The position numbers were made by a program, and so were the translations under genes. Of a stretch of 64,000 nucleotides of DNA, positions 15,693 through 64,000 are shown piece by piece (the stretch's first letter is position 1; each line of letters starts with the position of its first letter). This DNA comes from Branchiostoma floridae (taxonomy: Eukaryota; Chordata; Leptocardii; Amphioxiformes; Branchiostomatidae): NCBI RefSeq assembly GCF_000003815.2, contig NW_023365701.1, positions 83,782 to 147,781 of the forward strand, written 5' to 3'. Below the pieces are notes generated by a model, which was not told the origin of the DNA, made no database searches, and saw only the letters and a list, made by a program, of their open reading frames with translations.

Positions 15693-16285
15693 GAAACCCT
15701 AGATTCGTGGGTGGTGTATCTTTGCAGATGGTAGCTCGAAAGTCTCACTCATTGTAAGAAACATCTTAATGTTATAAACTCTATTCTTGAATAGCGCTTG
15801 TACAATTTGAAACAGCGCCCCAAGCAAGTTCTTCTTTTTTTGCAGTTACTGGTATTTAACTTTTTGTGTTCAAGATACTGATGTTCAAATCTATAAAGAT
15901 TCATGGAAGTTTATTTGATGTGTAAAGTACAATATCTGCTACTGAGTGTATATATATATATATATGCGTAATGAACTGAACTTAGTTTCCTGTAAGAAGC
16001 TGATGAAGAAGATTATGGAAATATCAATATCAACTTTCTTTGAATACATGTATAATATTTTGTTTTTCATCATTAAAAGAGTTATGTTCTCAAATGTTAA
16101 TCGGCTTGTTGTGTTAATTATGTGGTTCCTATAGTGTACACGTAGTTTTTTGTTTAATATAGAATTCCTATTTCTATGGCACCCTTCCAAAAATTTAATA
16201 TGAAGTGGTTATGTTCCTAATTCTATTCCAATGGTCATCAGCAAACCATTGGGCAGGGTAGTATTTGAGCAAAAACGGCTATTCC

Positions 16286-16620
16286 AGATCTACCCAAACT
16301 CTACCCCTAGTTCTAATTCAGATCTACCCAAACTCTACCCCTAGTTCTAATTCAGATCTACCCAAACTCTACCCCTAGTTCTAATTCAGATCTACCCAAA
16401 CTCTACCCCTAGTTCTAATTCAGATCTACCCAAACTCTACGGTACCCCTAGTTCTAATTCAGATCTACCCAAACTCTACCCCTAGTTCTAATTCAGATCT
16501 ACCCAAACTCTACCCCTAGTTCTAATTCAGATCTACCCAAACTCTACCCCTAGTTCTAATTCAGATCTACTCAGTCTCTACCCTAGTTCTAATTCAGATT
16601 TGCTAAAACTCTACCTCTTA
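16286..16620. repeat. 34-bp tandem repeat, about nine to ten copies
   Basis: The unit begins AGATCTACCCAAACTCTACC and continues CCTAGTTCTAATTC, repeated head to tail. The central copies look identical apart from one 4-base insertion (GGTA at 16441). The last two copies are diverged (AGATCTACTCAGTCTCTACC, then AGATTTGCTAAAAC). This is a minisatellite, expected to be length-polymorphic. Confidence 0.95.
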
Positions 16621-18520: not shown

Positions 18521-21500
18521 CTACATCTTACAGCATCTCTTCTCCCTGACAGCTTCCTCCAAGTTCAGGGCCTTCTCCATCTGCTGGTCTTCCTTTTCAC
18601 ACAGTTTCCTGTTAAAAAATGATGATTCGTAAATTTCCAAACAAGTTGACAGTTCTCCGTATTTCATGTGAAAAGTATGCAATGGGCCAATCCTGTTGAA
18701 TGACATATCAAACAAATAGAACCCCCTATTCTATTTCTAACATCCAGTTGGGCAGAAATGGCCAAAGAAAAATGCCTTCTTTGTTGAAGAGTATAGTTTT
18801 GGGAGGGTCAGAGCAACTGCATAGCATTTAACATAGTTTGTAGGATGTGCGTGTACAGCAGGGTATGTATAAGAGATGGGACTCAGCACTAGTGGACTTG
18901 CAATTGCTTGTAGGGTCCTATAGTTGGCATATAGCACAAGCTCAAGGCATAAAAAGAGTGAAAACCTTAGGCCAGTTTGTATGGCTAGTCGGGCATGGCT
19001 CTGCGTAGGAAAGACCATTCTAAGGAAACAAGAGAGTTACTGTGAATGCAGAAACATTTGCGATGGTTTTCGTGTGGCCGCTTCACCGCGAACTTAAAAC
19101 CACCGCAAACATTTGCCCATGGTAGTAAGAGACTACAATACATGCTACCGCGAATTTAAAACCACCGCGAAAAGCCCTTTTCCCGCTACGGCGAAATTAA
19201 ATCCCTGCGAACTTAAATAGTCATTTACAGTAGTACCTACCCTGCCATGTGTAGTACAGCCTCTGTTATGTCCTGACTCATACATGTACACACATTTGTT
19301 TCCTTAAAAATGGTCTTTCCTACGCAGAGCCATGCCCGACTAGCCTATACAAACTGGGCTAAGATTTTTAAAGAGACAAGAGAATTAGTACCTACCCCGC
19401 CATGTGTAGCACAGCCTCTGTGATGTTCACTCCAGTCTTGGCACTGCTTTCAAAGAACAAGGCATCATATTCCTACAGAGACAAGAAAAACAGACATTTA
19501 AAAATCAGTACATTTTTGTAATGCAACATTTTGTTGCTTGTCATGTATGCATGCTCCACAAATTAGAGTTGTTTGCTATGCTGAGTTCTTACATGTATAC
19601 AGCAAACATGCTTCATACAATTACTACTTAGGAATCCGTAAAAAAAGGTATTGTAATCAGTTGGTATGTTTGCTTGTATGTCTTGGTGTGTGTCTGCAGT
19701 TATGTGAATATTGCAGCCTGCCAGGATGTTAGTTGGAAATGGTGTAACAGGATACTTGAAGAATTGGAAGTCACGATCAGTGTTTTGGCTTTGGTCCATT
19801 GTTGCAGATGACCATTAGAACTAACGTTGATTTTGGATATCTAATGAACATTTATTTCTCAAAAAGTAGAAGCATTATTAAGACAAATCCATTCCAAGAC
19901 AATGGTTTGAATGTAAAGAAACATTATCACTGAAATCAGATGACCTTGACCCCCACTGACCTGTGCCAGTCTTTTTGCCACGTGACTTTTGACCCCTGAC
20001 AGGTCATTCTCCAGGAGCAGGTCGACCTTGTTCCCCACCAACATCAGAACGGTGTCCTCTGACGTACCCTCCTGTGGAACGGGAATCAGATCAGGTATTG
20101 TGGGCCAGCTTGTCAAGCACGAAAAAGCTGATAAATATAGAATACAACATGGTGTATTCCGTATCACCCGAGGTACAAGCCCGACCGCGGGAAGAATCGC
20201 CCGACCGCCGAAGGCCTGAGGGTGATCCGACCCGCGGGAGGGCTGGGACCTGGATGCTGGAACACGTTTTGATGCAAAATGCACCAGAAGTTGAGAAAAT
20301 GTTGTCTCCTCGAACAAAAGATTGTAACAATAGCAATTATTCTAACATCCGAATCTGGTATTCGAATTTTTGACCGTGCCGTATTCGACCCGTTGGAAAT
20401 AGTTTGATTTATTTGAAGGAAGCCCGTGTGATACAACTTAGAACCCGTATGATACTTAAAGTTATCACACAGCCCGGAACACCTGTATCAAACGTTTTCA
20501 CAACCCAGGTATGACATAATGGCTAATATATTAGGGGTGAGTACCGGTACAGAAAATTCAGATACAGGAATGGTGCAGGTTAGTGCGGAATTGGAGCTGT
20601 GCAGGTATTTCTGATGTCTACCTGCACCTAACCTGCACTGGTCCATGTGTTGGGTTTTATACATAAATGTCCTATAATATATTAGCTGTATATGGATTGT
20701 TATTAGCTGCATTGACTGTTACCACCTAATATAAGTTAATAGATAAAAGTACAATGTATATATATAAAAGAAAAAATAGCAATGGTTCCTCAACAATTTT
20801 ACTATGATCCATACTAAATTCGGAGTGGTGCAGGTAAAATTTGTCTGGTGCAGGTAATTTTCAATGCTACCTGCACGAGTGCAGGTATGCAGAAAAAAGT
20901 ATTTTGAGCTCTGCATATACATACCTGTATACTCTCCATCCAGCTCCTGACACTGGTGAAGGTTGGTTCAGTTGAGACGTCGTACATGATGATGACTCCG
21001 TCCGCCTTACGGAAGTACGACTTGGTGATGCTGCGAAACCTGGTGTAGGTATAAATACAAGAAACACAGTCAACATCCCTGCATTGTTTTATTTGCAAAG
21101 CCATGCCAGAAGGCTTATTGCAATTGCACAGTCTCAGTAAGAGTAAAATGATAGTTAAAGAGTACGTAACACTAATGTCTAATCAACTAGTATAATGGTT
21201 AGATTTGACATCTTCTTTGAAGGCAGTGGTTTGCTGCCAGTGCCTTTTCCTGCAGATCTAGAGGTTTGACGATTTAGGCTAATACCTGAAGCTCCCTCAT
21301 ACACGGGGCTGTTGATTTGGAAAAGTCACCAACCGAAATGACGAATACGATCCCTTACATGCATAACATACAACAGACAAAATAAAGAATTCTGTAACCT
21401 ATCCACAGATCCACAGAATTTGACCCATCTTGAGGTAAAGTAGTGGGGTCATTTATTACTTACGCCAGGGGATGTTTCTTTTTATTTCTGAATCAATGTT

Positions 21501-24500: not shown

Positions 24501-27500
24501 TGGGTCAGAGTTATAGCTTCAGGGGTCTTTTACAAGTCTTGTCTGCGGCTCAGTCAACTTAAAATAAGACTTCTCTGACTCGTTCATCGTGAAATTTTAA
24601 GAGGTTGGACTATGTTTGGAGGATGCAGAGTCTTGTTAAAAATGATAATCAAAAGCAGATTTCTTTTGATTTTGAAAATCAAACGACCTTCCAGTGATAC
24701 GTCGATGAAGGTTAGACATCCAGGTAATAAGATATGCCAAAAAGCAGTTACTCAAACAACTGGATATGATTTTTGAAACGGTCAGACATTTCAACTAGCA
24801 TCCACTAGATTTCATCAGTAACACTGAAGTGATCTGGAAGAAACTGGTCTTTTATACCTTAACTACAGTGTATGAATGAAGACAATTTAGCTGTCCAATA
24901 GAAAACATGTAAGACAAGGTCTAGGTGAAGACCATCCAGTGATCATCAAATATGGCTGAATTGAAGTTTGCTCACTGAGTGTGACAGGAGAAGAATAGAT
25001 GTGAGGTATTAATAAAAGAAGACACAAAACGTTAGTTGCAAACGTAAACACAAACACCAACGAAAAAGGGGCACCTCCCAACACTAGATGCAGGTAGGTA
25101 TTTACTCAGGGAAGATCCTTGTCTGGCTAGCGGGGCTGGTCTGGTCTCCGTGGTTACGGGGACTTCACGTTTCTCACCTCGACTGTTCTGTGGGGAACAT
25201 AGCAAAGTTTTAGATACATAATTTATCATCAAATAAATCAGCAACCAGTACCAGTCAAATCAACCCCCTGCCCCATCCTATAATTTCTAAGATTTGGAAA
25301 TGCTGTATGGTAATGGCCGAGTGGGTAGAGTGTTTGTCTTGCGTTCGGTAGGTCGTGAGTTCGATTCCCGGCCGAGTCATACCAAAGACTTTAAAATGGT
25401 ACATGCTGCCTTCTCTGCTTAGCACTCAGCTTCTGGGAAAGAGTATGGAAGTTGACCACATGCCACTACCAGTGGACTAGCCCCCTGCTGTAGTGATTGC
25501 ACAAAGTTGTGTGGCCCAGGGCTACTGAAATGGAAATTGGTGCTGCCCTATGCGCCATCAGGTGCGGGAAGGACTTTGACTTTTGAGTAGAACCTATGTT
25601 GGCCATTGCACCAGTCTGGTAAAATTGCCATTATAATTACTGGGTGCAATGGCCAAAAAGGGTTGAGAGTGTTCACCTTGCAGTCATTTGAGTCATAACC
25701 AAAGACTTAATCAACATCATGGCACTTGATGCAGGACAACGCATTGATTACAATCAATTGTAGGCAATAAGTGACTCTGAACAAAATACTGTAAATTTAA
25801 TGCATTTAAGTTTGCGGGGATTTAATTTCGCGGTAGCGGGAAAAAGGACTTTTCGCGGTGGATTTAAGTTCGCGGTTACACCATAGACTGCAGTTTAATA
25901 CCTTAGTAGAAAAAAGTTCGCGGTGGTTTTAAGTTCCCGGTGAAGTGGTCGCCGCAAAAACCGCGAACATTAATCCACCGCGAACATTTCTGCATTTACT
26001 GTTACAGTAGTTCAATAATCTTGAAATTACAAAATTTTTAAGGATTTAGGATACATAAATTCCATACCTTTCTTATTGTTTCATATTCGTCTTTGTCATC
26101 TCTTAGCTTTTGGTTCATATTCCTGAAAAATAAAGCAAAAAGAATAAATTAATGTAAAATTAATAAAATAATAACAAAAATATACTTAATTCAAAAACTA
26201 GATTTTCCAATAATAACAGTCCTGTTTTTTTTTTTTGCTTCCAACAGACTATGACTTTACAAATTAACGAGGAACTTGCTGCAATCAAGGAGGTTCTTTT
26301 TTAACCTCCTTGGTGCTATACAATATCTGATTCATCAAATCTATGACTTAACGCTTAAGTTCACCTTTATCCGTAGGGTAACCTATATCCGTTCCTTTAA
26401 AGAATGATGTATTTAGGGAAATCAAGTCGACAGATGGTGGTTTCAAACTGTCATACTTTAGAAATTGTACAATTTGAAACTACCTCCCATCGACTTGATA
26501 TCTCTGGATACCCTATTTAGCAACACAACAGATATAGGTTATCCCCGGGGATAAAGGTGAACTAACGTTACATTGTGATAAACCTTACTTGAGCAGGTCC
26601 AGTTGCTTGACCAGACTTTCTCTCTCCTTCACCATTCCTGCTGTCACTCTCCAGGCAGTCCTGAAACAAACATCCGCCAAACGTCACAAACATGCCTCAA
26701 AAACTTGTCTGCTTTCCAAGTGTATATTAAAAATCTTACCAACAGACATGATGCTTGCAAGGTCTATTCTCTGCACTGCAAAAAAGTTACAGTAGGTACA
26801 GTAAAATACAGAAATGTTTGCAGTGGTTTTATCAGGGCTCGAAGTTAACTATGTCCCGATGTCCCGGGGCCACTAAAATTTAGGCCGGGACAACTGAAAA
26901 ATCTTTTTGGGACACTTTTGGGACAATAGGAAAATAATCAACGAATCAACATCAGAATGTCCGATCTCCCCGCGGCCCGCGGTTGTCAGGCGTGCGTACT
27001 CTGACTTACAGTTGTTGTAATACATAATTTCTGAAAATAGGGTTGGGACAGTCCATCCTCACTTCGGGACAGTTGAAATTTATTTTTGGGACAATGCTGG
27101 GACAGTAGGGAAAAAAGTTAATTTTGAGGCCTGTTTTATGTTTGTGGTTTTCACGGTCCGTGGCCACTTAACCGCAAACTTAAAACCACCGCAGACATTT
27201 TTTCCATGGCACTGTGAGAGACTACAGAGCATGGTGCTACCACAAACTTAAAACCGCCGCGAAAAGTCATTTTTCCCGCTACCGCAAAATTAAATTTCAG
27301 CGAATTTAAAGGGAGAGAGGGAGGGAGGGAGAGAATGAAGACTGGTTGACCGACCTTGTTTTCCGTTTCCTCTCAGTGTCTGCCTTCTCCTGCCACTCTT
27401 GTACCTCAGCCATGGGGAGGGAGGGACAGATGGAGCAAGGGAGGGAAGGAGGGGGGAGGAAAATGAGGGAGGGATTGATGGTGGGAGGGATGGAGGGAGA

Positions 27501-27596
27501 GAGAGAGTGGGAGGACTGGTGGACCAACATTGTTTTCTGTTTCCTCTCTGTGTCTGCCTTCTCCTGCCACTCCTGTACCTCTGCCATGGGGAAGGA

Positions 27597-27652
<56 letters not shown>

Positions 27653-30600
27653 AGGAAAGGTTGACAAACCTTGTTTTCTGTTTCCTCTCAGTGTCTGCCT
27701 TCTCCTGCCACTCCTGTACCTCAGCCATGGGGAGGGAGGGACAGATGGAGAGAGGAATGGATGGATGGATGGATGGATGGAGGGAGAAGGATAGAGAGTA
27801 TATATTATATAGGAGGAAAGGTAATAACCAACCTTGTTTTCTGTTTCCTCTCGGTATCTGCCTTCTCCTGCCACTCCTGTACCTCAGCCATGGCTCCCTT
27901 CAGCCCACTCAGGGAGCTGTGTAACTTATTCTGTAACGCCTCATTGGTCTGTGGGGAAAACATATCAACAATGTTAGCTTAAACAAAGCATAGACACTAT
28001 CATATATGTTATATTTGGCCCGGTTATAATGACCCGTCCTGAGGTGTATATTAATTGCCATAATTCATTGGCGGTTCCTATAACCTGGTGACCGAATGAA
28101 CGACCAAGTGTTAAGCTTAGCCAACAAAGACAAACACCACTGTTTGTGATCTATCCTGCACGTCTGACATGTTTGAACCGCATCTGCACTATTTTGGATC
28201 CGTCCCTGACTGTGTGTATACCGGTCAATTTCCTGTGTATGGCTTCTTCTGATTGGGTCTAGTTTTTCAAAATCATTTGAGACTTGCAGGAATTCTATGT
28301 GACTGTTACAGTCATAACAAACAGGAAATGGGGACTTCTGACTGCTTAATGTTGCCTGGCTATATGATTACTTTAAACAATAACTTTAATTTAGTTTTCT
28401 ACTCATTCAACATTACACTATTCAATTTTTCCTTCTCCGTTACATACATTCATTTGTTTAGCAATTATTTTTTCATTTGCAATTATTGGTAGTCATTGGG
28501 AATAGATATACAATGAAAATGAAGATGTTATCAACAATCGTCATAATTCATTTTGTCATCCCTACGTATCACTTCCGAGGTCATCCCTATACCTATTACT
28601 TCCAAGGTCATGGAACATTATGAAGGTCATTGTTACTTACATATCCATTGTCATCACATATTCAGAATAAATAAAGCATTCACAGCTAAGAAACAGTTAA
28701 ACTCTACTTTTAGTTGATATACCATTAGCCTTAGGATAAACCTACAAAACACTGAAAGTTTAGCCCCAGGCCAGTTAGAAGATCATATTTAACTACACCC
28801 TACCTGATAGCTACATCTAGCACGGACAGCTTTCATGTGCAGAAAGCGCCAGTATAGCCAGGCCAACACACAGAACTTTACCGTACAGTCCAGCAGTTCT
28901 ACTACAGTCACAAGAACCAATCCCACGTCTATGGTAAACTTCATATCCATGGTGGCAGGGGTTACCGACATGCTTTTTTTGCTAACTCTAGAAAGGTGGT
29001 CGGATGATTCAAACGCTCTATGTACAGCTGGTATAGACCAGTATTTTAAATCAGTGATGCAAACACGGGCCAGTCCATTTTTATGAAGACGGGTCAAAAT
29101 ATTTCTACAGTGACTGTCATAAAAAACTAACATGGTGAATGAAAAAAAGAGTCATGACCACTAAATGGTACATTTTCTAATGCCATGGATATTAAATTCC
29201 ACTTCAAAATATCATATTTTGCATGCAATATTGTGTGCCACCCCTGTCAGGGCAATGATGGTATAGTCCATCTAAGGGTGTTGTAACGGCATGTGGGTTT
29301 GTCACCTGTCCAACTGCTTAAGTCATTTGCATACTGTGTTTGGAGCTGTTTATGGTACAGGCACATCCGGTTTTCTACCAACAACTATATTTTGTGTGTC
29401 TGTCAAATGTCTGAATAATGACACCTAGCTTGAAACCAGGCACGTATTATATTGTACAACAGGGCTCAAAATACCACCTGCATATGCAGGTTAGTGCAGG
29501 TAAATTTGGAGTTGTGCAAGTATTTACATTGTATGATATCTACCTGCACCAAACCATATTGGTCCATGTACTGGGTTTTATACATTAAATGTCCTGCGGT
29601 GTAGGCGTATACGGATTGCTATTAGCTGCATTGACTGTTACCACTTATAAAGTATGAAAAAAAAGCAATTATATAGTTCCTGAACAATTTTAGTATGATC
29701 CATACTTCCTAAATTCAAAATGAGTGGTGTAGGTAATTTTCAATGCTACCTGCACCAGTAAATGTAAGGATGTATGCATAAAAAAGGATTTCAAGCCCTG
29801 TACAATGTACTGTTGCAATTGAGGGAAAAAGCTGCTTGCTTCCAAAAAAAGGGCATTTTTATAGGGAGCAACAGTTACTTTTGAACAAGAAGTTACTTTA
29901 AAGTTATTCTCATGACCTACATTTGTAAATCTATTAATAATTCAACAGCACAGATATCTATTGTGTTTTTTTCTTGCATGATGATAATTATGTATTGTCT
30001 GGCCACAACTTTTCACCTCAAGTGAACTTTATGGTCCTGCCTTTCATAAAACGTTGATATAAGAACAGCTGTGCTATAACAACAGCAGCCAGTTTCTAGT
30101 TCAAGCATGTATTAAAGAAAGTCATAAATGGGACATTCTTAAACATCATGTGCATGCAATTTAAATGAATCAGATATATATTTGGGAATGAATTGTTATT
30201 GAAAATTAAAAAACATATGAAAATTTATGAGGTGATATCAAATATTTGTAATGCTCTTGTAGTTCCCTGTCAAGAGCTTGCCGGACCTTATGATTCATGT
30301 TTTCACGATAAATCTTATTGACTTGTCAGTTTTGTGATCACTACTCAACATTATGTGGTCCAAAGCATGTGGGAGGCTGGCAAGTCAGCAACAAAACACT
30401 TCAATCTTTCTATTGGCATTTCCTTGTTGCCAAGTGTTTTTAGGCACAAATTGTGACTTACTTATAATATTTTATTCAAACGGGAGGGGCAGGTCAGCGT
30501 CCCAGGTTATAATGCACTAAACAGATTGTTAGTACATGTAGCAGGGAATTATATAAGTGAACATGGCAGTTCTTGGTCAAGAATCAGCAGTTTTGTATAC

Positions 30601-50294: not shown

Positions 50295-51281
50295 CGACAA
50301 CAGTTCATCATCAGGGAACTTGGGTTGGGAAGTGCAGTGTATGAGCGCCTCCTATTGGTGTTTACCAGTACTGCACACTACACTACATTGCAGTAGGATT
50401 CAGTTCAGAGTGGTTATATCTACAAGTGGCCAAATGTGCATGCACTATACATGAAAGCTACGTTGAAGACACATTTATGTTTTGGATTAGATAGTATATA
50501 AATCCTGAAAGCTTTGTATTTCTTGATCAATGAACATTTCCAGGTTGACTATGCTTACTGTATCAAATCAGGGTGCTTTAAAAGCCAGATTTGTGATGAT
50601 TATGAATTGTGAGATTGTAATGTGATTGGTCTGTACCTAACCTTATATGGTTATGAAAGATAATGCGCTGTGATTGGTTTATTTCTAACCAATCAAATGC
50701 CTACTCCTATAACTGTACTAAGTCTTCATATTTATTGTAGTCAAAGACAAATGCTTTGGAGTAAAAAAAAACATGTCTTGTATTCAGCCAGCAAAATCTG
50801 AATATACAAGTTATCGCTAGAATCAATCTTAATTTTGCACTTCTGTACATCAATTATCATCATCGGTTGACGTGCTTACACATGACAGGGTTATACCACC
50901 CCTCAATTGTTCTCGTCATCATCATCTACAGCAATTGTATACATAGTACACATACATGTATTTCTCTTGACCATGATATGTATGTACACTCCGAGAAAAA
51001 GATAAAATGTACTGTTTTTCAATAGGATTTGGTCCAAGTCTGATTTTTTTACAGCTAACTAGTCCTGAGTTCTATGGAATGTTTTAAAAATCTTGGTTAC
51101 ACTGACAAGGTCTCCAGTAGCACAAAAAGCTATGTTCAGCTAAACATGATATAATTGTAGTCTGGTTTTGGCTTCTTCCTATTTTGCTCCAGTGCTAATA
51201 GTCCTAAGTAGAATTATGTGTTACAGACTGGATACTTGCATAGATGTTATATCTACACACGTTAAAAACTTGGGTAGATCT
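50295..51281. other. AATF 3' region
   Basis: 3' UTR and spacer sequence, AT-rich. No second gene is seen. The first 200 bases are probably 3' UTR, but I cannot fix the cleavage site. Confidence 0.4.
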
Positions 51282-51307
51282 TACAGTTATTTGAGTGTTC
51301 TGTCACT

Positions 51308-54154
51308 TCTCACCTTCTCACCCTGACGCCTCTAGGCCTAAGGGCCTGTGAGTTGTCAGCCTCTGGACAAAGGATCTCCATTCTCCTCTTTCTGATGTCT
51401 TGTCCTTTACTTTATCAAAATCTGGTTCTTCTTTACAGGTTATCTCCTTGATCTGATCGATCCATCGTTTCCTTGGTCTGCCTGCCGGCCTCTTCTTTTT
51501 TGGTTTCCAGTTGAAAATTCTTTTGACATCTCTGTGGTCTGGCATTCTACACAAATGTCCGAACCATCTCAGCTGGTTTCTTTCAATCAGTGTCAATATA
51601 GGTTCAACAGACAACTTTTGACATATGAACTCATTTCTGATTCTGTCTAGTTTGGTGACTCCAAAGATGAGTCGGAGCACCCTCATCTCAGTGGCCTGTA
51701 CTCTGCTTTTCAGTTTTTTGGTCAGAGTCCAGATTTCGCTTCCATAAAGTAGTACTGGCCTTAAGATGGTTGTATAAATACAGGTTTTGACGTCCTTGGG
51801 TATGCTTTTCTCCTTCAGGAGAGGGTACAAAGCACATAGATTTTTCGTGAATTTTATAATCCTGTTGTTAACTTCTTCTTCGATCGAGTTATTTGAGGTC
51901 ATTTTGCTGCCTAGGTAGTTAAAAGAGGTCGTTTCTTTGAGGACATAGTTGTTTATAGAAATGTTGCGGTAACTTCCTCCTTGATTTCGACTCACTCTCA
52001 TATACTCAGTCTTCTCGTAGCTTAGTTTTAGACCAGCTGTGGTCAATTCTTGATCCCACTGGGTCATAACTCTTTGTAGCTTTCGCGTGCTATTTCCAGT
52101 TTGTGCAATATCATCTGCATACCCAAAGCGTTCAATTTCAAAGTCTTTCCGTTCTATGTTTTGTATAGTACGGTTAAAATAGATAATGAAGAGGAGTGGA
52201 GAGAGGACACTTCCTTGGCGTACGCCAGTGTTTGTTTCAAAGTAGGTAGTTCCTCCCAATACAGTACTGCACTGGTTCTCATAAGTACTTCTGATGGCTT
52301 TGAGGAGTCTGTTGCTAATGCCCGTTTCTCCTATCACTTTCCACATTTTTTCTCTCGGTATGCGATCAAACGCTTTCTCTAAGTCGAGGAAACATATGTG
52401 TTGATCAATGGAGTATTCCCAGCTCTTCTCTAAGAAAAGTCTCAGTGCTGCTATCTGGTCAACTGTTCCCCTGCCGGGTCTAAACCCACACTGGCTTTCA
52501 CTAAGCAGGCTCTCTGCCTTTTGCCTTAGTCGTCTTTCAAGGATTCTTTCATACAGTTTGCCAATGTGGCTCATGAGGGATATACCCCTGTAGTTTTTGC
52601 ACTCAAGGGGATCTCCTTTATTCTTAAAGATGGGGCAAATAACAGACTTATTCCATTCTGTCGGTACTGTGCCTGTTCTCCATGCATGGTTGAATATGTC
52701 TAGTAACAGGTTTTCCATAGTTTCTCCCCCAGCTTTTACCACCTCAATAGGAATTTCATCAGGTCCTGGGGCTTTGTTGTTGCTTGTGAGTTTTAGGGCT
52801 GACACTACTTCCTCTATTGTAATGGGATCGTCCAGTTCTTCTGTCATGGCAGGCATTTCCTCTGCCCGTTGGGAATCATGTACAACATCATTAGGCTCTT
52901 CACCAACGTTTAACAGTTCTTGGAAATACTCATTCCATCTATTTGTGATGTTACTTTGTCCTGTTATCAAGTCACCTTCTCTACCCTTTATGGTGGAGTT
53001 CTTGGGTTTGTCATTACTCCTGTTTTTATAGGCTTTTGACATACTGTATAACAGTTTTTTTGTTCCTTTGCTGTCTTTCTGTAAGTCTTTTCCTATGTTA
53101 TCCCACATTTCTTTTTGGGCTTGTCTCTTTACCCTGTTGACCCTGTTTCTCTGTTGTACGTACTTTGCCCTGCTTTCAGGTGTTCTTTCCTTCAGCCATT
53201 GTTTAAAACATTTGTTTTTCTCATCTACTTCCTCTTTAACTTCGTCAGTCCACCAACCAGTTCTTTTCTTTTTGGGGTTACCCACAACAGTCATTCCTAC
53301 TATTTCATGTTGGATGTCTTGGAGGCAGGTTTTTAAAGAGTTCCAGTGTTTGTCTACATCATCTCCATTTATGTTGTTTTTCTCGTCATGGAGTCTCTCT
53401 TCGATGTTTTCTCTAACACTTGCCAGATTTTCAATTTTGACTCTTTTCCTCACTATTTTCTTTTCAGGTTTTGGTAGATGTATTTTCATTTTTCCTCTTA
53501 TCAGTCTGTGGTCTGAGTCAAGTGATACTGATGGAAAAGCTTTCACATCTCTGATAATGGATTTCTTGTTTGTAAGTATGAAGTCTATTTGTGACTTCTG
53601 ATCATATTGGTTAATATGAGAGTTATATCTGTACCATGTGTATTGGTGGCTTTCTTGGTGATCGAAGTATGTGTTCATTACAGCGAGGCTGTTTCTGAGA
53701 CAAAAGTCAATGAGCATCTCCCCTTCCTCATTTCTCTCTCCCACTCCGAACTTGCCAATCACTCCCTCTACTACATCACTACCAACATGGCAGTTCAAGT
53801 CTCCCATGACGATAATGTCACTTTCATTTGGTAGACTGTCAAGAGTGTCCTCAAGTTGCTCAAAGAAGTGTACTTTTTCTTCTCGTGGTCTGCCTTGTTG
53901 TGGCGCATATGCCTGGACAAGTGATGTTTTATATGAGTTTATATTGAGTGTTACTACAATGATTCTGTTGCTCACATATTCTGCTTTCTCTATGTATTTG
54001 GAGAATTCTGGGTCTAGGAAGAATGCTACTCCATGTCTAGTGTCCTTTTCACTTCCAGAGTATACTAGTTCATACCCATTGTGCACAGTTTTTCTTCCGT
54101 TTCCTTTCAAGCGCGTCTCAGCAACTCCTAGCACTTTAATATTACGTTCTGCCA
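51308..54154 (-). mobile_element. 5'-truncated non-LTR retrotransposon, RTE-like
   Basis: The insertion is bounded by an exact 26-bp target duplication (51282-51307 and 54155-54180, TACAGTTATTTGAGTGTTCT then GTCACT). The element's 3' end (minus strand) is a short GGTGAGAA repeat directly after the stop codon, as in RTE-type LINEs that end in microsatellites and not poly(A). An intact duplication and an open frame point to recent insertion. The 5' end is truncated within the endonuclease. Confidence 0.92.
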
Positions 54155-54185
54155 TACAGTTATTTGAGTGTTCTGTCACTATCAT
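51318..54185 (-). CDS. Endonuclease-reverse transcriptase of a LINE (955 codons open)
   Basis: An APE-type endonuclease occupies about residues 11-235: Glu23 in VAETRLKG, GDLNCHVGS at 128-136, SDHR at 224-227. Reverse transcriptase covers about 470-740: DLEKAFD at 601-607, GVRQGSVLSP at 654-663, YADD at 689-692. A C-terminal RWFGHLCRM and GRPRKRW region follows. It nicks target DNA and copies its own RNA onto the nick. The first ten residues come from the flanking target duplication, so the apparent start codon is host DNA; the first endonuclease strand is missing, so the enzyme is probably inactive. The C-terminal motifs suggest the RTE clade, but no alignment was possible. No stop or frameshift interrupts the frame. 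Confidence 0.9.
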   Translation of the reverse strand: MIVTEHSNNCMAERNIKVLGVAETRLKGNGRKTVHNGYELVYSGSEKDTRHGVAFFLDPEFSKYIEKAEYVSNRIIVVTLNINSYKTSLVQAYAPQQGRPREEKVHFFEQLEDTLDSLPNESDIIVMGDLNCHVGSDVVEGVIGKFGVGERNEEGEMLIDFCLRNSLAVMNTYFDHQESHQYTWYRYNSHINQYDQKSQIDFILTNKKSIIRDVKAFPSVSLDSDHRLIRGKMKIHLPKPEKKIVRKRVKIENLASVRENIEERLHDEKNNINGDDVDKHWNSLKTCLQDIQHEIVGMTVVGNPKKKRTGWWTDEVKEEVDEKNKCFKQWLKERTPESRAKYVQQRNRVNRVKRQAQKEMWDNIGKDLQKDSKGTKKLLYSMSKAYKNRSNDKPKNSTIKGREGDLITGQSNITNRWNEYFQELLNVGEEPNDVVHDSQRAEEMPAMTEELDDPITIEEVVSALKLTSNNKAPGPDEIPIEVVKAGGETMENLLLDIFNHAWRTGTVPTEWNKSVICPIFKNKGDPLECKNYRGISLMSHIGKLYERILERRLRQKAESLLSESQCGFRPGRGTVDQIAALRLFLEKSWEYSIDQHICFLDLEKAFDRIPREKMWKVIGETGISNRLLKAIRSTYENQCSTVLGGTTYFETNTGVRQGSVLSPLLFIIYFNRTIQNIERKDFEIERFGYADDIAQTGNSTRKLQRVMTQWDQELTTAGLKLSYEKTEYMRVSRNQGGSYRNISINNYVLKETTSFNYLGSKMTSNNSIEEEVNNRIIKFTKNLCALYPLLKEKSIPKDVKTCIYTTILRPVLLYGSEIWTLTKKLKSRVQATEMRVLRLIFGVTKLDRIRNEFICQKLSVEPILTLIERNQLRWFGHLCRMPDHRDVKRIFNWKPKKKRPAGRPRKRWIDQIKEITCKEEPDFDKVKDKTSERGEWRSFVQRLTTHRPLGLEASG

Positions 54186-55070
54186 ACAAAACTACATAGA
54201 ACAGTCATACTGACCAAGAAAGTATCATCTTTCTCAATAATTTTTGCACACAATGATTTTAAGTGACAACAGTCTTCAGACATTGAATACTACCAAGTGC
54301 CTATTTTAAACTTTAAAAGTACATTGTAGTAAATTCATTTAATATTTCTTTAAAAATTCATAATGCACACTTTTGGTTTGGTCCTTAGATATTTAAGTTG
54401 ACTAAAAAAAACATTTTTCAAGGAATTCAAAGAAAAAAGCCAACATTCAAAGTGACATGGCCCTAAGCATACTTCAGGTCCTATTGCTTACTGTAAAATC
54501 GTAAAACTTTCACAGTGGTTTAATTCATTTTGCGCTGTGATTTCTGTACTGGAACTCAAGACATCAAGAATGTACATTTCCAACGTATGACTACTGTATT
54601 GGCATTCTGTCAAAAGAAAATTTCGATACAGCAGAGACATCCATAAGGCCTCCTTCAGTCAATATTGTCCATGGTAAAATCCAAAATGACATAATTATAA
54701 GCCCTACTGGCTATGGCTGGATAGTCCTACCATAGAATAACACTGCTGCAAAAGTAAACAAATTTACAGTATTCTAGTGTCTAACTCTGAGATCAGGTCC
54801 AAGCTGTCTTAATCTTAATGCAAACTTTTTCAAAAGCAAATTTAAATACAGCAGAAACATTCGTTAAGGCTTCCTTTGATCAACATTGACCACAGTAAGA
54901 TCGTTATATCAGCCCTATTGCTTCAGCTATGGCTGGATAGTCCTATCATGAAATAAAACCACTGAAAAATTGTACAGCATTCTAGTTTCTAACTCAGCTT
55001 TCTTAACCCTTGAAGATGCACTAGGCTGCTTTCTAGAACTACACAAATTGTACAGTGTCTAACTGTAAAA
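54186..55070. other. Spacer and probable 3' UTR of the ANKAR-type gene
   Basis: AT-rich, no coding exon. It contains two related blocks (around 54610-54660 and 54835-54900) sharing CAGCAGA.ACAT and GCCT.CTT motifs, and a duplicated tail of the last exon (TTCTTAACCCTTGAAGATGC at 54999-55035 and again at 55085-55120). A CTGTAAAA fragment of the MITE family may lie at 54492. Confidence 0.4.
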
Positions 55071-58000
55071 TCACGTCCAAGCTTTTTTAACCCTTGAAGA
55101 TGCTCTAGGCTGCTTTCTAGAACTCCGACCGCCATTTTCCTCCTCCTTGTGTGTAAGAGTTGCCATGCTCTTAGACACAGAGATCATTGCTGACTTCTCG
55201 CGGCGCCTCCTGTCCCTTGTGTTGATGATTGCAGGCGCAGACACAGTCCTGGGGCCGGGCTTGTCTCGCACTTTGGTGGTGGATGTCAGGCCGATGGCTG
55301 TGTAGGGTCGCGCATATCCTGAGGAAAAATATAAATCAAACAGTTTTCAAATTTGAGTGAGTTTTACAGACCAGTATAGGAATTCTACAAACTCTTACTT
55401 ATTACAGAAAAGATATAAAATGTATTTGGTTTTCATTTACAAGTTTTCTGATCCAAACTTTACACTAACAATTTCCCAGAGGATTATACTAAAGGCAAAC
55501 ATGTAATGACCAAACACAGGTAACTGTTAGGTTATATTTTTGTACTGCAACCATACTAAAGCTTTCATACAAATGTAGCTGTTACAATTACTGTTACTAT
55601 TAACAAAGTAAGTCCTTGCTTTGCATTATTTGTATAACGTACATGTATCTGTATCTGTAAAATGAATAATTTAACTGTTAATATTGTCTAGTTACCAGGG
55701 CTAGCCCTGGGCTAGCCTCCGACTAGTTGGGTAGCCCTGGCTGTATGGCTTTTTAAACAGCTAAATAAATCAAATCAAACTGTAACAGTACCTCTTGATC
55801 CTGGATACTGTATAGGAGGGCCTCCATTGATCTCCAGACTGAAAAACAATGAAACAGAAAACATTACTAAAAGGAACTAACTGTAGGGAGTATAACAACA
55901 GATAAAACTGCATACAAACATTTAGTGTACAAACATCTACTTGACAATGTGTAACTACCTCTGCATATGGACCACATACATGTAGCCATTGTGGCCACTT
56001 TTGGTGATCCTGTACATAAAAGCAGAAATACATGTACAGCCTACTGTGAAATTGAGAATCTTCTAAATACCCCATGAGTCTTACAGTACCTCTTACCACT
56101 ATAAGCGTGTGATCGGTCTTGCTATTTCTGTATTGTCTCAATCTCAAATGCTACAAATGTGACAAACAGCAAAATTAAGTCCTACTAAAGTTAAACGATT
56201 TTCAGTACTCATCTCTGTGAGGGCAGTACTGATATGCCAAAAAGCAGTTACTCATGCAACTGGATATGATTGTGGCAACGGTCAGGCATTTCAGGTAACA
56301 TCCACTATCTTTTGTAAGTGACACTGAATAAAAATGCTACAAACTCACCTCTGTGAGGGCAGCCCCACCATTTTGGCCATCCTGAACGTATCTGTGAACT
56401 CCATGCTGATGCGAGCGTCCTGACCCATATTCTCTACCAGCACATCGTACAGACCCGGGGTGTTCCGACACAGGACCAGTAGCTCGCGCCCTGCCGTTCG
56501 GTTAAAGGTCAGGTAACCAAGGGCAACGGCAGCGTAGAAACGAACCTGGAAAGGAGACGTGATGAATCTGAGTCAGGTACAGTATAAGCTGTTTTTAAAT
56601 GTTTTTATCAAAATTGCACAGTCACCCCATTTGGCGTATTTCGTGTGTGGTACAATGCAAAGTTATTCAGCTGAACCACACCGGTTTGGGATTTAAGGAT
56701 TTCGTACAATTAACAGAAGTGTGTGGAAATCCGTTGTAAATTTAACTGGCATCTGCTGTATCTGGTTTAACGGTTGTTGATTAAAATTTAAAGGCTCTGG
56801 GTTCCAATCCCAAGCAGGCCTCAATGTTGTGCATTTGGGAAAGGCTCTTCACATCAAGTCCATTTCTTCACTCAACTCTGGTCAAAATAAGTAGTACTAC
56901 CAAGCTTCAATTAGGGATGTCTTTCTAGATTAGATGTAAAGCAAAAGGTACCATTTTGACGATAGGAAAGCTACACCTTTGGCACATTTAACTTTTAAGA
57001 ATCTAAATATGTAAAAGAGTAGAGGTCCTTGTGGTGTGATACTACTGAAGATGGTCTACCAGTTATTAAACACAACTGCTTCAATCTAGCCTATGAAGCT
57101 TACAATACAGTGGAACTTGTAAGAAGAAATTGTATGTTTGTACCTGGTCGTTATGAGAAGACAGATGTTCTGTTAACAGTTCCACGGCTCCACACGTCAC
57201 CATGGCGTCTGGGATCCCTGCTCTGGTGTGGGCTAGGCTGCCCATCAGGCTCGCTGAGAATGAAAAATGGACATAATTATGTTTAACTTCAACACTTGGT
57301 AACACATCTTACTGCACTGCAGTGTATCATACTTCTGCCACAAAGATACAGCTACATTGTTTATGGCTGGATTCATTCCTTTGCAAAAAGCAGGTTATGC
57401 CTTGCAACTGATAATTCAAAACATAATACAAACCTCTAGGATCATGCAAAAATTCAGTAAAAGTATTTATCATACAGTTTGTGAAATACTATCAACATAT
57501 TTCTGCTCCCATGGCAGTCGAGTAATTAAGGGGTGCAAACATTGTAAAATTCCACCAAATAGAATATTCTTCCCAGATGTTTTGAGTTTTGGTACATGTA
57601 GCCCTGCAAGAGTAAAGTATTTGTACAGTAAGACTTTGTCTACATTTCAGACAATGTCACTGAAATTCCACTTTGTACATTATCTTTACATTAGTTGTAT
57701 TTATAATTTTGCTTTCTGCTATAAATACTGTCTTTTTAAAGACCATTAGTCACCTGCTAAAACCACCGTGTTGTCATCATCTGACTGCAGTAGCTCCACC
57801 AGCTGTGTGACCCCGCGGGCTGTCAGCATGACCTGGTCCTGATCTACAATCACTCGGGCCAGCACCACAACCTGTACACATAAACAAACACATTTTTAAA
57901 GGGCCTGCATTAGAAAGCTGTCATTTACCCCTGAAATGAAGGCAAGACATCATGGTCAGGTTGGAAGGTTACTGTATGTCCAGCAAAAGAAGAAAACACA

Positions 58001-61000
58001 CTCAGGAAATTCTTGAAAACAAACCGATATGGCAGACTTCATCCCTTGACATACAATGTAGACCAGGAAAACTGACAAGCAGAAAAGAACAGTGTCAGCA
58101 ACACTGTCCTTTGTACAAAAATACTTCAAAAGAGTATTTCCAAAATTTACAATGATGACTGTCCTTGGTACTGAATTACACTTGTCTTTGGCTCTGATCT
58201 GTTCTTCTTTCCTACCATTTTTAATTTTTACTTCTACGTTATGAATCCACCAAATCACGACTCACGTGGAATGAAGCGTGTGCCTGGTAGGCTTCGTTCT
58301 CTGACAGTAGGAAGGGCTCAAATATGGCCAGCGGAATCCCGCCCAGCTGCCTGATCTTGTACTGGTTTGCAGTGTTGTTGAAGACGTATGTGGACAGGGC
58401 AGTGCCTGCTCTCAACTGTACATCCTGGGGGAGATCAGGAATTTAAGATGCATTTCTTAGCATTCATTTATTCTTCAATCATAAATATCCAGCATCCTGT
58501 TGGAAATTCCGATTTGAATTCTTCAAAGCAAAACCTACTACATTGTGTAATGTAATTGTATAATAACCTAAGTGTAATAGATCAAAAACTAAAGCTAAAT
58601 GCTTCTTGTCAAATATAGTAATAGTCAATCACTTCTCACCTAACTATTTACAGGACAGATTGTCTTATCATTCAAGATGAACTTTGACCAAGACCAACTC
58701 ATATTTTCATTGAGTTGGTGTCATTTTTTTTTAATCGCATTCAATTTTCTCACTAACATTTTGGCTACTTTCTGCTTAATATAGATATTATAGAGACAAT
58801 ATCATAATATATTAAAGGAAGGTAGCCCAAATCTTGGACAAACTGGCTGTGGCAGTGAAGAAAATCTTTAGTTGTATATCTTAGATGAGGACATGTTTAC
58901 CTTATTACTGGAGTGGAAGAGCTGTAACAGGATACTGGGTGAGAACGTCTCCTCCTCCTTCAGCACCTCCTGGATGTCCTTGTTGTTCAGGGAGATACAG
59001 GAGAGAGCCAGGACTATCTCCACCTGAAACACAGTCAAGACAGAGGTAAGCATTGTACAGTGCATCCTTTTACTGAGACATCTGAGCAACTTTCCAAAGA
59101 ACTGCAGGAGTCTATGTTGGGGTTCATGGCAAATAATGATTGACTTTACCTTAATTGCAAAGAAAACAGCTATGTTGTTCTTGTGACTGGAGGGAGCTAT
59201 ATACCCAATAATTAACACATTGAATGCTACAACATTGATTTGAACTCTGACCATTGAAGACGCCACACACATGGCGAAACTAGTCTGGTGGTGGGCTTAT
59301 TTAAAGTAGTTCTGAATGGGAACCATTGGGGCTACAGCGTCTTTTCTGAACATGTGGTGTGAGTGTGTACAGTTGGCCTGAGGTTGTCCACTACTACTTG
59401 CAAATTGAATGATAGATGTTTTAGAATTGAAGTTACCATGATTGATATGTCCAAATGAATTGAAAAACCTACCACTATGTGACCACATCTACATGGCCAA
59501 TATGATTCCATAGATAATTTTTCCATTGAGAATCTGTCTATAGCAACTACCTGTCCAACCAGACCAGATTTCATAGGTCGCCTGAGTTATTCTTGAGTTT
59601 TCACAACTAAGAACAAAAAGCGTTTTACCTGTAGTATCTCATTTGATGTACTCCCTAAGATTTTACACAATGTAGATATGGCCTGCTCCTCTGCTATCTT
59701 CCCTTGGGTCACCTTATTGCTACTGTGGGCAACACCTGTGGATATTTGAATAGCATCAGTCTTTGACATTTTGTACTTTTGTAGGTACAAAATAATGCAA
59801 AGGTGTAACTACTAAAACACTTATACATATCTTGCATCTAGAATCACTATCAAACAATGCGTTATAACACACAGTTCAACTTGTTCCAGAATTTTATAAC
59901 TTAGTCTGTTGTTTTCTGCCATGGAAAAGTCAGGTTTGACTGAATATCCTAACTCATATTTTGACTAGAGAGGCAACATTTTTGCAAAAATGCATAATTT
60001 CTTCTCTCTAGCATTGCGTCAAGCTACTTGCATACAACACTATACCAGCAGGCTAGCCCCAAAGTACTGTGTATGGGTGAAAAAAAGAATTGGGGCTAAG
60101 AATCTGAGTAGCCCAACGTGATAGCCCAGGAAGCCAAGCCTCGTACACAGCACAGCCCTTTCTGTATGCCCTTTCTGCCAGGAGGAAGAACGAAAAAGAA
60201 CACACCTGCAAAAACAAATTGTTTTCTCCTTCTGCACTAAGACAGGAAGGGTCCTCACCTATACACAGAGTACCCAGGGCCTTGATAACAGTCAGCAGCA
60301 CTCTCTCAGAAGTCTTGGAAAAGATATACCTTCTTTGGGGCTTTATGGAGTTAAATTATGTACTAGCCTGTTCCCAACCTCAGGTCGTTAATGTATGTAT
60401 GTAGGTACATTGTATGGTCCTCACCTATACACAGAGTGCCCAGGGCCTTGATAACAGTCAGCAGTACCGTCTCAGAAGTCTTGGGTGATCTCAGCAGTCG
60501 CACCAACGGCTGGATCCCGTTCTCACGACAGATCTTGTTTTGATACTCGATACTCGAGCGGCTCAACGCAATGATTGCCAAACAGCCTATAACAGGAGAA
60601 AATGGCAAAAGGTTTACAAAAATCTTCGAAAAGTTCGAACTGTTTATTTTATCCAATAGTGTACATTGCCATTTGCATCATCAAGTATTCATGCAGGATA
60701 AAATTTTCCTTCATTCAACACCAAATAGAACACATCACAGATGTGGCAAGACTTTTTACTAAAAATCACCGACAGACAGATACACATGACACAAAATGAT
60801 ACTTCAGTACTTGACATATCATATCTAAACATCGATAGGCATGTATGCCAAGCTGAGAGCTGAACATATAAGACTGTCTACTTACCCACATATTGCAGTT
60901 TCTCAGACTTTAACAGCAGCATGTCGATCAGCTGGGGGATCCCGATCTTCTCTGCGATCATCCTCTGCTGCCGCGGTGTGCTGCCAGCCAGCGCCCACAG

Positions 61001-64000
61001 CGTACAGGCACCCTGTTCTTTTACTTCTACAGACCAGACCTGGAGAGGTAAACACACAATGTCATGTCTACTATGGGTAACAGGCATACAGTACATACCG
61101 GTAACATTGTGCACACAAGTCCAGCCAATGCCATGAGTGTACAAGTCCCATTCTTCAGCTTCAACAGATCAAACCTGAACATAAAAAAATACTGAGTCTT
61201 GTCACAAGTTTGTTATGGGGTAACAGATATTGTATAGACTACAGGATTGTCCAACCAATGACCAGATAGTGTTCAAGTTCCCCATTCTTTTGTCAACGTG
61301 AACCTGGAAACATGCATGTTACATTTTTCCTTATATAAGGACACCAAATTTGTTGCATCTCCGGCACTTTTTACATAAATTAAAATGCATGGTTTTTCTT
61401 TTTGGAATGAAATGTTACCTTCAGCAGTTTGTTGAGATATTTTGGTGCATCGAGATCCAAGATGGCCGCCTGACTGGTGCTGTTGTTCTCAGCGATGGCC
61501 TCCAGCGCGCTTGCGGCCTTCACCTGAACTGTCACGTTACGCCCCCACACCAGCTCGACTAGCGGCCGCACCGCGCCCTGATCCACCACCTTGTCCTGGT
61601 TGTCCTTGTGTCCGGCACAGATGGACGCTAAAGCCGCTGCAGCCGCCGCCTTTAGAATGTCTGTATGAAATGAAATGAATGTAGTTAAAGTCAAGTCAAG
61701 TCTGAAGCAGAAGCATTCAATATACAAATGTCCAACTTATATATCACCATCAAATGTTACACAAAATCTAAAATATATGGTGCAAAAAATGCCATAAGAA
61801 TAACTAATCCAGAGTTATGGTAAAAATCAAAAGTACCTTTGAAGCAACCAGAGGATACAAACTTCAAGTTAGAACTCTGCAAAAATTTACCATTACATCT
61901 ATATGTTAGTCATATTTTCATCTCTCATGCCGCAACATCTTACAAGAAAGATTGGGCTAAGCCCTATTAGGTACTCTGAATAAGCTTTACTCTGCTATGG
62001 TAACATGAACTTGGCATCGGTTTCAATTTTGGCAACATAAAGAATGTTTACCTTTTCAGCACCAAGGACAAACCCAACCCTAACCTAAAAGTGTTACTGG
62101 AGCACCTTGACAAGTGCAACCACGTAACTTGGCACACAAAGCAGACCACAAACCTGAGTCCACTCCGAGGAACTCCACCAGGGGTTCCAGGCCGCAGTTT
62201 TCTGCCACAGTGCTCTGGTTACCGTGGTTACCGGTGCACAGCACCCGCAGCGCGTTGACGGCGTTCACCAGGACGTCCTCCAGCTCTGACTCCAGCAGGT
62301 GGACCAAGGGGGGGATCCCGCCCTGGGAAAACAAGGACATTTGAAAATAAAATATAAAAGCACATTGTCAACCATTTGGTGTGAAGGCTGGCCGACTGCT
62401 GCCTACCCCTGCATCATGGACCCCAGCAGCAGTCACTCACTCACTCACTATCCATGGTTAGATTATACTGCTGCTGGAATCCCTGATGCACGGGTAGGCA
62501 GCAGTCGGCCAGTCTTCACACTCAAACACAGGACCTCTGCCTTTATGTCCTATCCCAGAGTTTGTTCCTAATGGAAGCTACTAGTAGATACTCATTTTCA
62601 GTGACTGATAAAAGTGTGGATCTTATATAAAGCACATGACCATTTACAAAACTTATCCAGTTGCTAGAGTATCTTTTGTATTGAGCATATCTTTGCCAAT
62701 TAGTAACTGGATGCTTTGGGAAGAAATGACATGGAAGACAGAGAAAAATGCAGTTGAACTGTGTTTTAGATGATACTGAATAACAAGACTTAGTATCAAT
62801 TATCTTGTAAAAACACAACCAGCCTATAGTGAGTTTTATAGACCGCTTGCAGATAGATGTGCAAAAGCTAGGTGTGACGGGTCATTCGGTGTAATATAAC
62901 CAGCTGCTGCTGCGACGCGCACCTGCGAAGCTGGTGTGTTACGCCGAAGGGCGGTTATACCGGCTATATAGATACAGATACAGACAGATACAGCCTGAGA
63001 GCAGTGTACCGTACCTGTGCAGATATGGACTCCTGGTTATCGTCCACACACGCCAGGTCTGACAGGATGACGGCAGAACGGGACTGGATATCGTCCACAG
63101 CCGACCCCAGGAGACGGATGAGCACGGGGGTGGCGTTTGCGTTGGCGATCTCTCGCCTCACGGGCTCGTGTTCGGAGATGTTGCACAGAACGGAGGCGGC
63201 CAGAGCCTGTAATATCTCGCTATCGTGTTTGAGAAGCTCCACCAGTGCAGGGATGGAACCTGTGGAAGCATATCCATTAATAGTGCCATCAGGATGGTAA
63301 ACCACAAGTTAAGATAGGCTAGTTACTAGTTCTTCCGGATACATGTCAACTTCATGAGGTTGAAGACTCTGACACAGTGCAGGGACACAGTGCAGGGGCT
63401 TCGGTGTAGACGAGGTGGTTGCTACATTATTGCGTGTTTTGCAATTTGGCTTTCTTTGTGTTTGAAGAAGAGAGAGAGTTAACATATAACTAGGCTAGTG
63501 CATAGGACAAATGAGATTTAACACTGACTTAACTACTATGGTATGGCCATCTCCATAGAATGAAAGAAGAGAAGTGGCCAAGAAAGATCACTACAATGAC
63601 CATAGAGGGAAGGAACCCACATGGACTACCACGCAAGAGATGGACTGACAACAAAAGGGAAGATCTTCATCTTCTCAACCTACACAGTGCCAACCCTAAA
63701 GACAGAGGCGCCGTCAAGCCTCCACATCTACGTGCAAGCCTGTCTAACTCTTGCCGGATGGGGAGCAACAGAGGATAAACCAGGTAGGGAGTGAATGAGT
63801 GAGTGAGTAACAAAAATGCACCTGTTAGATTAAGGAGGCTGTATGGATCGGAACATCTACTCCTGTAATGAACTATGAACTATTTCCCAGTAACTCTATG
63901 CCATGATCACTAAATCTAGAAGTTAAGCTCTTTGATCATTTTATGATACCACCTACCGGCTGCCAGCATGGCTTTCCAGTGCTCCTCCCCAGACACAGAG
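55071..64000 (-). CDS. ANKAR: Armadillo-repeat protein, ANKAR-type, C-terminal half
   Basis: Fourteen exons join in phase to about 708 aa, 5' end outside the window: 63957-64000 (partial), 63015-63259, 62154-62322, 61419-61660, 60886-61039, 60425-60586, 59629-59735, 58901-59023, 58266-58424, 57754-57871, 57144-57253, 56349-56545, 55792-55838 and 55071-55318. Successive ARM repeats are clear: GSIPALVELLKHDSEILQAL, GGIPPLVHLLESELEDVLVN, GAVRPLVELV, IGIPQLIDMLLLKSEKLQYV, GIQPLVRLLRSPKTSETVLL. The tail (RPYTAIGLTSTTK .. SSRVKKAWT) is basic and probably disordered. ARM solenoids bind partner peptides; ANKAR's own role is poorly known. The ankyrin part expected upstream is not in the window, so ANKAR rests on ARM wording and length. 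Another ARM-only protein cannot be ruled out. Confidence 0.85.
56215..56335 (-). mobile_element. Penelope-like repeat, degraded core
   Basis: Shares GATATGCCAAAAAGCAGTTA, GCAACTGGATATGATT and GGTCAGGCATTTCAGGTAAC with 24670-24840. The first box reads CTTACAA instead of CTGATGA, so cleavage is unlikely. It lies directly beside exon 56349-56545. Confidence 0.55.
60251..60319. repeat. Partial copy of an ARM exon, donor side
   Basis: GGTCCTCACCTATACACAGA.. to AGAAGTCTTGG repeats 60416-60484, which holds the donor and about 60 coding bases of exon 60425-60586. Four substitutions separate the copies. It lies downstream in the transcript and keeps a GTGAGG donor. Confidence 0.85.
61086..61316. repeat. 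Two decayed copies of an ARM exon acceptor side
   Basis: 61117-61176 (CCAGCCAATGCC..GTACAAGTCCCATTCTT..AAACCTGAAC) and 61255-61312 (GTTCAAGTTCCCCATTCTT..GAACCTGGAAAC) resemble 60985-61045, the 5' end and acceptor of exon 60886-61039. Identity is visibly lower than in the other junction copies, so these are older. Confidence 0.6.
62379..62521. mobile_element. MITE with GTGTGAAG ends
   Basis: The left arm GTGTGAAGGCTGGCCGACTG continues CTGCCTACCC and pairs with the right arm GGGTAGGCAGCAGTCGGCCA..CTTCACAC. Further inside, CCAGCAGCAGT pairs with ACTGCTGCTGG. Total 143 bp, in an ANKAR-type intron. No clear target duplication. Confidence 0.85.
62880..62975. repeat. Inverted copy of the CGCGGCGCAGCAG dispersed repeat
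   Basis: ATATAACCAGCTGCTGCTGC and GTGTGTTACGCCGAAGG are the complement of 45418-45480. It is followed by GGTTATACCGGCTATATAGATACAGATAC, and a short GATACAGA repeat. Confidence 0.5.
63540..63815 (+). mobile_element. LINE 3' remnant, RTE-like C-terminus
   Basis: In one frame GHLHRMKEEKWPRK and then GLPRKRWTDN are recognisable as the C-terminal motif pair of RTE-type LINE proteins (compare RWFGHLCRM and GRPRKRW in 51318-54185). A GAGTGAGTGAG tail follows. It is a 5'-truncated dead copy, antisense to the ANKAR-type gene. Confidence 0.75.

Follow-up and report, generated by a model that had tools for sequence, protein, structure and literature searches.

The duplications known from amphioxus as 'mirages' were first reported in 2002 (Canestro and others, as cited in passages of PMC3087553 and PMC3902484). 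They have been described in Adh3 and in the globin genes BflGb6 and BflGb9, and invoked for PGBD5, troponin C and other loci, in those same passages (PMC3087553, PMC3902484). Splice sites of PGBD5 are overlain by repeats of 60 and 108 bp, which re-sequencing supported (a passage of PMC3902484). Where the two papers treat mirages, they report or suggest that splicing is regular, that length is unstable and that the mechanism of origin is unclear (PMC3087553, PMC3902484), and the passages of the globin paper report concerted evolution within one globin mirage and propose that mirages feed intron gain (PMC3087553). Within the portions of the amphioxus mirage literature searched, we found neither a genome-wide mirage count nor a test of junction preference, and the mirage passages of PMC3087553 and PMC3902484 name neither RASEF nor ANKAR.

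Two related systems lie close to mirages. Intron gain by tandem duplication has been proposed elsewhere (Rogers; Gao and Lynch 2009, both as cited in a passage of PMC3087553), and in a potato gene a new intron was born of a duplication crossing an intron-exon boundary (a passage of PMC4974935). The boundary-crossing duplications described below likewise carry splice signals, as the potato duplication does in that account (PMC4974935), but our gene models require no new intron. A general route to small tandem duplications is the fill-in of break ends by Pol alpha-primase (passages of PMC8355091). The products are short tandem duplications, as here, but that work concerns human and mouse cells, and its available portion mentions neither lancelets nor any preference for junctions (PMC8355091).

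We examined a 64-kb stretch of lancelet DNA, hereafter the window, which is free of N bases. Building exon models from splice signals and open frames, we modelled 49 exons over four genes. A retropepsin-like multi-exon gene (RETP; 529-4492, minus strand) has 5 exons and is incomplete at both ends, and its aspartyl-protease matches are weak and fall under the Pfam cut-off. The RASEF orthologue (18521-40754, minus strand) joins EF hands to a Rab GTPase over 19 exons in a single open frame, and its closest solved relative is 2p5s, 'RAS and EF-hand domain containing'. AATF (42995-50294, plus strand) has 11 exons encoding AATF-Che1 and TRAUB domains. An ARM-repeat gene, which we take to be ANKAR-like (55071-64000, minus strand), has 14 exons and a 5′ end beyond the window. 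In the final exon set, GT or AG stands at 93 of the 93 junctions of the four genes, and the exons join into open frames, so the exon edges on which an earlier sequence-only reading of the window had relied are sound.

Local duplications were sought by self-comparison with a low-complexity filter, keeping same-strand local pairs with starts 20-1500 bp apart and scores of at least 30 bits. The real window gave 56 such pairs, a count that includes satellites and a zinc-finger array, whereas each of six shuffles gave none; chance cannot account for local pairs of such strength. A full local alignment scan returned 58 segment pairs. None is a copy of a whole exon, as the sequence-only reading had observed, and with units of ~40-130 bp few would be expected.

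Eight gene-body loci have a duplicated unit across a splice junction, four on the acceptor side (4.4, 33.4, 36.7 and 61.0 kb) and four on the donor side (19.2, 27.8, 38.7 and 60.4 kb). That reading had listed about nine junction copies. Its four acceptor-side sites (4.4-4.7, 33.5, 36.9 and 61.1-61.3 kb) all yielded aligned copies, and its donor-side copies at 19.2, 27.4-27.7, 38.7 and 60.25 kb are 88-95% identical to their sources. The ninth, a supposed donor copy at 40.35 kb, is purely intronic, since its repeat begins at intron position +3 and crosses no junction. In seven of the eight loci a single alignment row extends 8 bp or more to either side of the junction, and the 61-kb locus was established through a multiple alignment. 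Five loci (4.4, 27, 33, 36 and 61 kb) hold at least three copies, the source included, in head-to-tail, minisatellite-like order. The loci at 19, 38 and 60 kb have just two copies with a spacer of ~97-180 bp, and are spaced duplications, not clean tandem ones.

All eight loci lie on the minus strand. The RETP acceptor mirage (4421-4689) consists of the source acceptor, belonging to exon 4344-4492, and two tandem copies that are ~92% identical, with a unit of ~87-91 bp (~66 bp of exon and 23 bp of intron). Among the RASEF acceptors, the largest array spans 33401-34115 with a unit of 132 bp: the source (33401-33508) is accompanied by clear copies at 33533-33640 and 33679-33780 and by decayed ones at 33940-33994 and 34063-34115, and the 33.4-kb pair is 82-86% identical over whole rows. 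The second RASEF acceptor array (36743-37098) pairs a source at 36743-36811 with a copy at 36861-36929, and an additional older copy, partly deleted, lies at ~36991-37067. The acceptor array of the ARM-repeat gene (60985-61345) has its exon start at 61039 and old copies near 61174 and 61303, in which 16 and 23, respectively, of the 53 exon bases differ from the source. These copies fall under the 30-bit cut-off; full local alignment found them as a copy-copy pair only, and they were tied to the source by multiple alignment and codon comparison.

On the donor side, the RASEF mirage at 27337-27893 comprises the source exon end (27833-27893) and three copies (27651-27726, 27526-27600 and 27344-27413) that are 90-95% identical and separated by GA-rich spacers. 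The other two RASEF donor mirages, at 19231-19426 and 38704-38988, each have a single copy: 19231-19271 against the source 19386-19426 (93%), whose exon ends at base 19396, and 38704-38755 against the source 38937-38988 (88%). The ARM-repeat gene donor mirage (60250-60484) sets a source of 60 exon and 9 intron bp (60416-60484) against a copy at 60250-60318 that is 94% identical and lies across a 97-bp spacer. Around the 19.2-kb locus, a dispersed repeat (19065-19232) starts where the donor copy ends, and inverted arms at 18961-19031 and 19296-19368 (~73 bp, 93%) enclose both the copy and the dispersed repeat; this is the strongest inverted-repeat pair near any of the junction loci.

Two weaker junction copies, also on the minus strand, had escaped the sequence-only reading. 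A borderline acceptor copy (32609-32808) involves 21-25 bp at the acceptor of exon 32465-32611 and at 32770-32808, and a borderline donor copy (56207-56362) matches its source at 19 of 20 bp (source 56343-56362, copy 56207-56226), with the donor GT changed to AT. The 56.2-kb pair flanks a dispersed repeat (56231-56328).

The structure itself is already known from lancelets as mirages, and the present loci lie in other genes. As in the described cases, the units are tens of bases to ~160 bp long and span an exon-intron boundary, arrays run head-to-tail in minisatellite-like fashion, both acceptors and donors are affected, the copies are intronic and many retain AG or GT. The loci here differ in occurring in a RASEF orthologue, an ARM-repeat gene and a retropepsin-like gene, in that several copies are older and more decayed, and in that three loci are two-copy and spaced. 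We consider it probable, with good confidence, that the loci are cephalochordate mirages: short local duplications, with units of ~40-130 bp, that chanced to cross a junction, arose as small duplications, grew like minisatellites and decayed.

Under this explanation, each locus would probably have come from an ordinary small-duplication mutation, either fill-in during the repair of a break or slippage and template switching in replication, and the loci at 33, 27, 36, 61 and 4.4 kb would then have expanded to 3-5 copies through minisatellite-like turnover. The junction still attached to the remainder of its exon would stay in use, while intronic copies without that remainder would decay. We infer splicing at the real site and neutrality of the copies. 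A tandem duplication across a junction always leaves one junction on the whole exon and places the other copy, with half an exon, in the intron; on this geometric reasoning, nothing special is needed to explain where the copies lie, why young ones carry the splice consensus or why half of the exon is lost. Some observations sit less easily with the mirage explanation, namely the spaced two-copy loci, an AG/GT better kept than intron, a third-position lean between copies and synonymous-only exon differences at 36 kb. In addition, as described below, the excess of junction loci survives a modelled detection bias, which suggests that something beyond chance placement may act.

An assembly artefact would produce a similar picture if two diverged haplotypes had been joined end to end, doubling conserved exon edges. 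Lancelets are highly heterozygous, which makes such an error conceivable. One globin mirage was misassembled in a published draft, according to a passage of the mirage literature. Several copies have, however, decayed far past what separates alleles, with as many as 23 of 53 exon bases changed, and carry non-synonymous changes and deletions; five loci have 3-5 copies in a row; the window is without N; and in PGBD5 re-sequencing spoke against an artefact (a passage of PMC3902484). We therefore consider this explanation very unlikely.

We next considered whether exon edges are preferred sites of duplication, as the sequence-only reading had suggested. Across the gene body, 8 of 15 local-duplication loci cross a junction, whereas 1.7 are expected when the observed unit lengths are placed randomly over its 42,920 bp (P ~5e-5). 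Leaving out the 61-kb locus gives 7 of 14 (P 4e-4). In the subset of more similar pairs a junction is crossed by 7 of 10, against 1.1 expected (P ~2e-5); this subset is nominally at least 85% identical yet includes the 33.4-kb pair with its lower whole-row identity. The 15 loci count the 54.6- and 55.1-kb rows as two and leave out intergenic pairs, the zinc-finger array with its 3.5-kb fragment, the 34-bp satellite at 16.3 kb, pairs within dispersed repeats (19085, 25852, 27171 and 40468), a GAT-rich pair at 44157, extra rows of counted loci and the borderline pairs at 32.6 and 56.2 kb; the excess would become stronger if the borderline pairs were counted as junction loci and weaker if they were counted as non-junction loci. 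Put differently, 8 of the 93 junctions carry copies over 43 kb of gene body, and junction-crossing units are ~3-5 times as frequent as random expectation.

Such an excess could be a detection effect only, in which the conserved exon half of the source keeps junction pairs recognisable for longer than others. In line with this, in every one of the 7 junction units with a single-row alignment the exon part is the longer one, and a decay simulation, in which the source exon took no indels and changed four times more slowly than neutral sequence, moved the expected share of junction loci from 14-15% up to 15-20%. That rise amounts to 1.05-1.37-fold, against an observed excess of 3.8-fold, and the excess persists in the more similar pairs, where the bias should be least. 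We thus regard detection alone as a possible account, if a somewhat unlikely one. With an expected share of 19%, a binomial test of 8 of 15 gives P 0.003, and with 25% it gives 0.017; the detection-corrected excess is ~2.8-fold (P ~0.003, post hoc).

The excess would be accounted for if exon edges were genuine duplication hot spots in this lineage, with transcription-, splicing- or chromatin-linked breaks or template switches concentrated at junctions. The counts given above favour this, as does the small size of the simulated detection bias, and mirages have been reported from several unrelated amphioxus genes in the passages cited, but those published cases stem from single-gene studies. The present counts come from one window and 15 loci, are post hoc, and have P values that are optimistic because the window was chosen for its pattern. 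By point coverage, local copies cover 6 of 93 junctions, modestly above introns (4.0-4.2%) and exons (4.9-5.8%) and below intergenic DNA (8.6-8.8%; thresholds 30-32). Intergenic points include the zinc-finger array and the satellite, intron points include the copies themselves, which partly explains the weakness of the contrast, and the 27-kb junction goes unflagged, probably through the low-complexity mask. A common breakpoint motif is not apparent by eye. We therefore find the hot-spot account doubtful as it stands: the claim that exon edges are preferred held up as a count within the window, but with a post hoc excess and weaker point coverage it is unproved in general. The same reading had noted that AATF has no copies, and indeed none was found there; the observation is uninformative, since none of eight loci falling among 20 of the 93 junctions has P ~0.14.

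Only tentatively would we propose that small local duplications have genuine hot spots at the exon-intron junctions of lancelets, giving a constant stock of duplicated splice sites from which intron gain and intron sliding could draw. If junctions are preferred, duplicated splice sites would be arising naturally and continually in lancelets, and the origin of new introns and of shifted exon edges would become testable by counting young copies in a population. If they are not, mirages would be plain minisatellites that are noticed when they lie on exons.

A further proposal was that selection maintains the copies because they act as decoy or regulatory splice sites, delaying or redirecting splicing. 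The sequence-only reading held that copies keep the splice consensus while losing half of the exon; this applies to most of them, with AG or GT retained in 16 of 18 copies and two copies without it. In the second 61-kb copy the loss of AG is an alignment gap, and an AG lies nearby in the sequence. With weight matrices derived from the splice sites of the window itself, 11 of 18 copies score no lower than the lower quartile of its real sites, and several would be predicted to be credible cryptic splice sites. The bases of the splice dinucleotide matched the source in 33 of 36 cases, and intron bases 3-8 positions from the junction did so in 78 of 108 (P 0.02), a difference that favours decoys at first sight; a better match of AG/GT than of intron is, however, expected even for free copies, because the AG/GT of the source is itself constrained. 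Exon bases 3-8 from the junction are the fairer yardstick, since the source copy is constrained there too, and against these (94 of 108 matched) the dinucleotides are no better kept (P 0.56). Every one of the 18 copies would alter the reading frame or introduce a stop in the mode of use that this test covers, as an alternative site. The copies also carry non-synonymous changes, deletions and old decay, and published mirages are said to leave splicing undisturbed (passages of PMC3902484 and PMC3087553). Maintenance as decoys is accordingly very unlikely in our judgement, and the copies are more like remnants of local duplication than like functioning decoys.

The differences between copies are in keeping with the mirage explanation of local duplication followed by decay. 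In 13 source-copy pairs, 57 of 107 differences fall at third codon positions and 54 are synonymous, where a constrained source and a free copy lead to an expectation of ~45% at third positions by hand calculation. In 6 copy-copy pairs, which are not independent, 25 of 51 differences are at third positions (P 0.015). The source-copy excess is explained well enough by a constrained source, and the copy-copy excess is weak; overall, the codon-position pattern fits a constrained source with free copies, and some homogenisation between copies is possible. At the 36-kb RASEF copy, 3 of 54 exon bases differ, all synonymously, against 4 of 15 adjacent intron bases, a contrast that hints at conversion or constraint. 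When four loci were pooled, exon and intron divergence did not differ significantly (P 0.23), with the exon stretch of the pair at 4.4 kb shortened to 20 bp to avoid an indel.

Local duplication in the window is not confined to junctions. The sequence-only reading had seen no copies of mid-intron DNA alone, a statement contradicted by five intron-only loci found by local alignment (2991-3106, 26886/27065, 37355/37532, 43750/43882 and 40328/40609). The last of these (40328-40682, minus strand) is the pair once taken for a donor copy, and consists of 74-bp direct repeats, 88% identical, at 40328-40399 and 40609-40682. A dispersed repeat of ~210 bp lies between them, and their length far exceeds that of a usual target-site duplication. 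The 56.2-kb locus resembles this case, with 20-bp direct repeats flanking a dispersed repeat. Further local duplications at 54610-55124 reach the 3′ end of the ARM-repeat gene and its last codons, and the row 55054-55090 spans the stop.

Mobile elements were considered as a general cause of the duplications and rejected. The loci at 40.4 and 56.2 kb flank dispersed repeats, and those at 19.2 and 27.3 kb abut one. Flanking direct repeats beat all 100 shuffles in 2 of 20 dispersed repeat copies, and in a third, at 24.7 kb, they beat the 95th percentile only. Elsewhere in a RASEF intron, 256-bp direct repeats at 34545-34800 and 36133-36388, with starts ~1.6 kb apart, are 100% identical and look like the terminal repeats of a non-autonomous element of very recent origin. 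Beside the ARM-repeat gene, an intact frame of 957 codons on the minus strand (51318-54191) encodes the endonuclease and reverse transcriptase domains of a LINE-type element.

Other repeats in the window include the zinc-finger array (14774-15692), one open frame with an 84-bp period, and a diverged zinc-finger repeat piece within an RETP intron (3467-3666), on the strand opposite to the gene. The 34-bp satellite (16285-16615) lies downstream of RASEF and has ~9.6 copies. The first AATF intron contains an inverted repeat (43930-44032) with 51-bp arms that match at 50 of 51 positions and leave it almost loopless.
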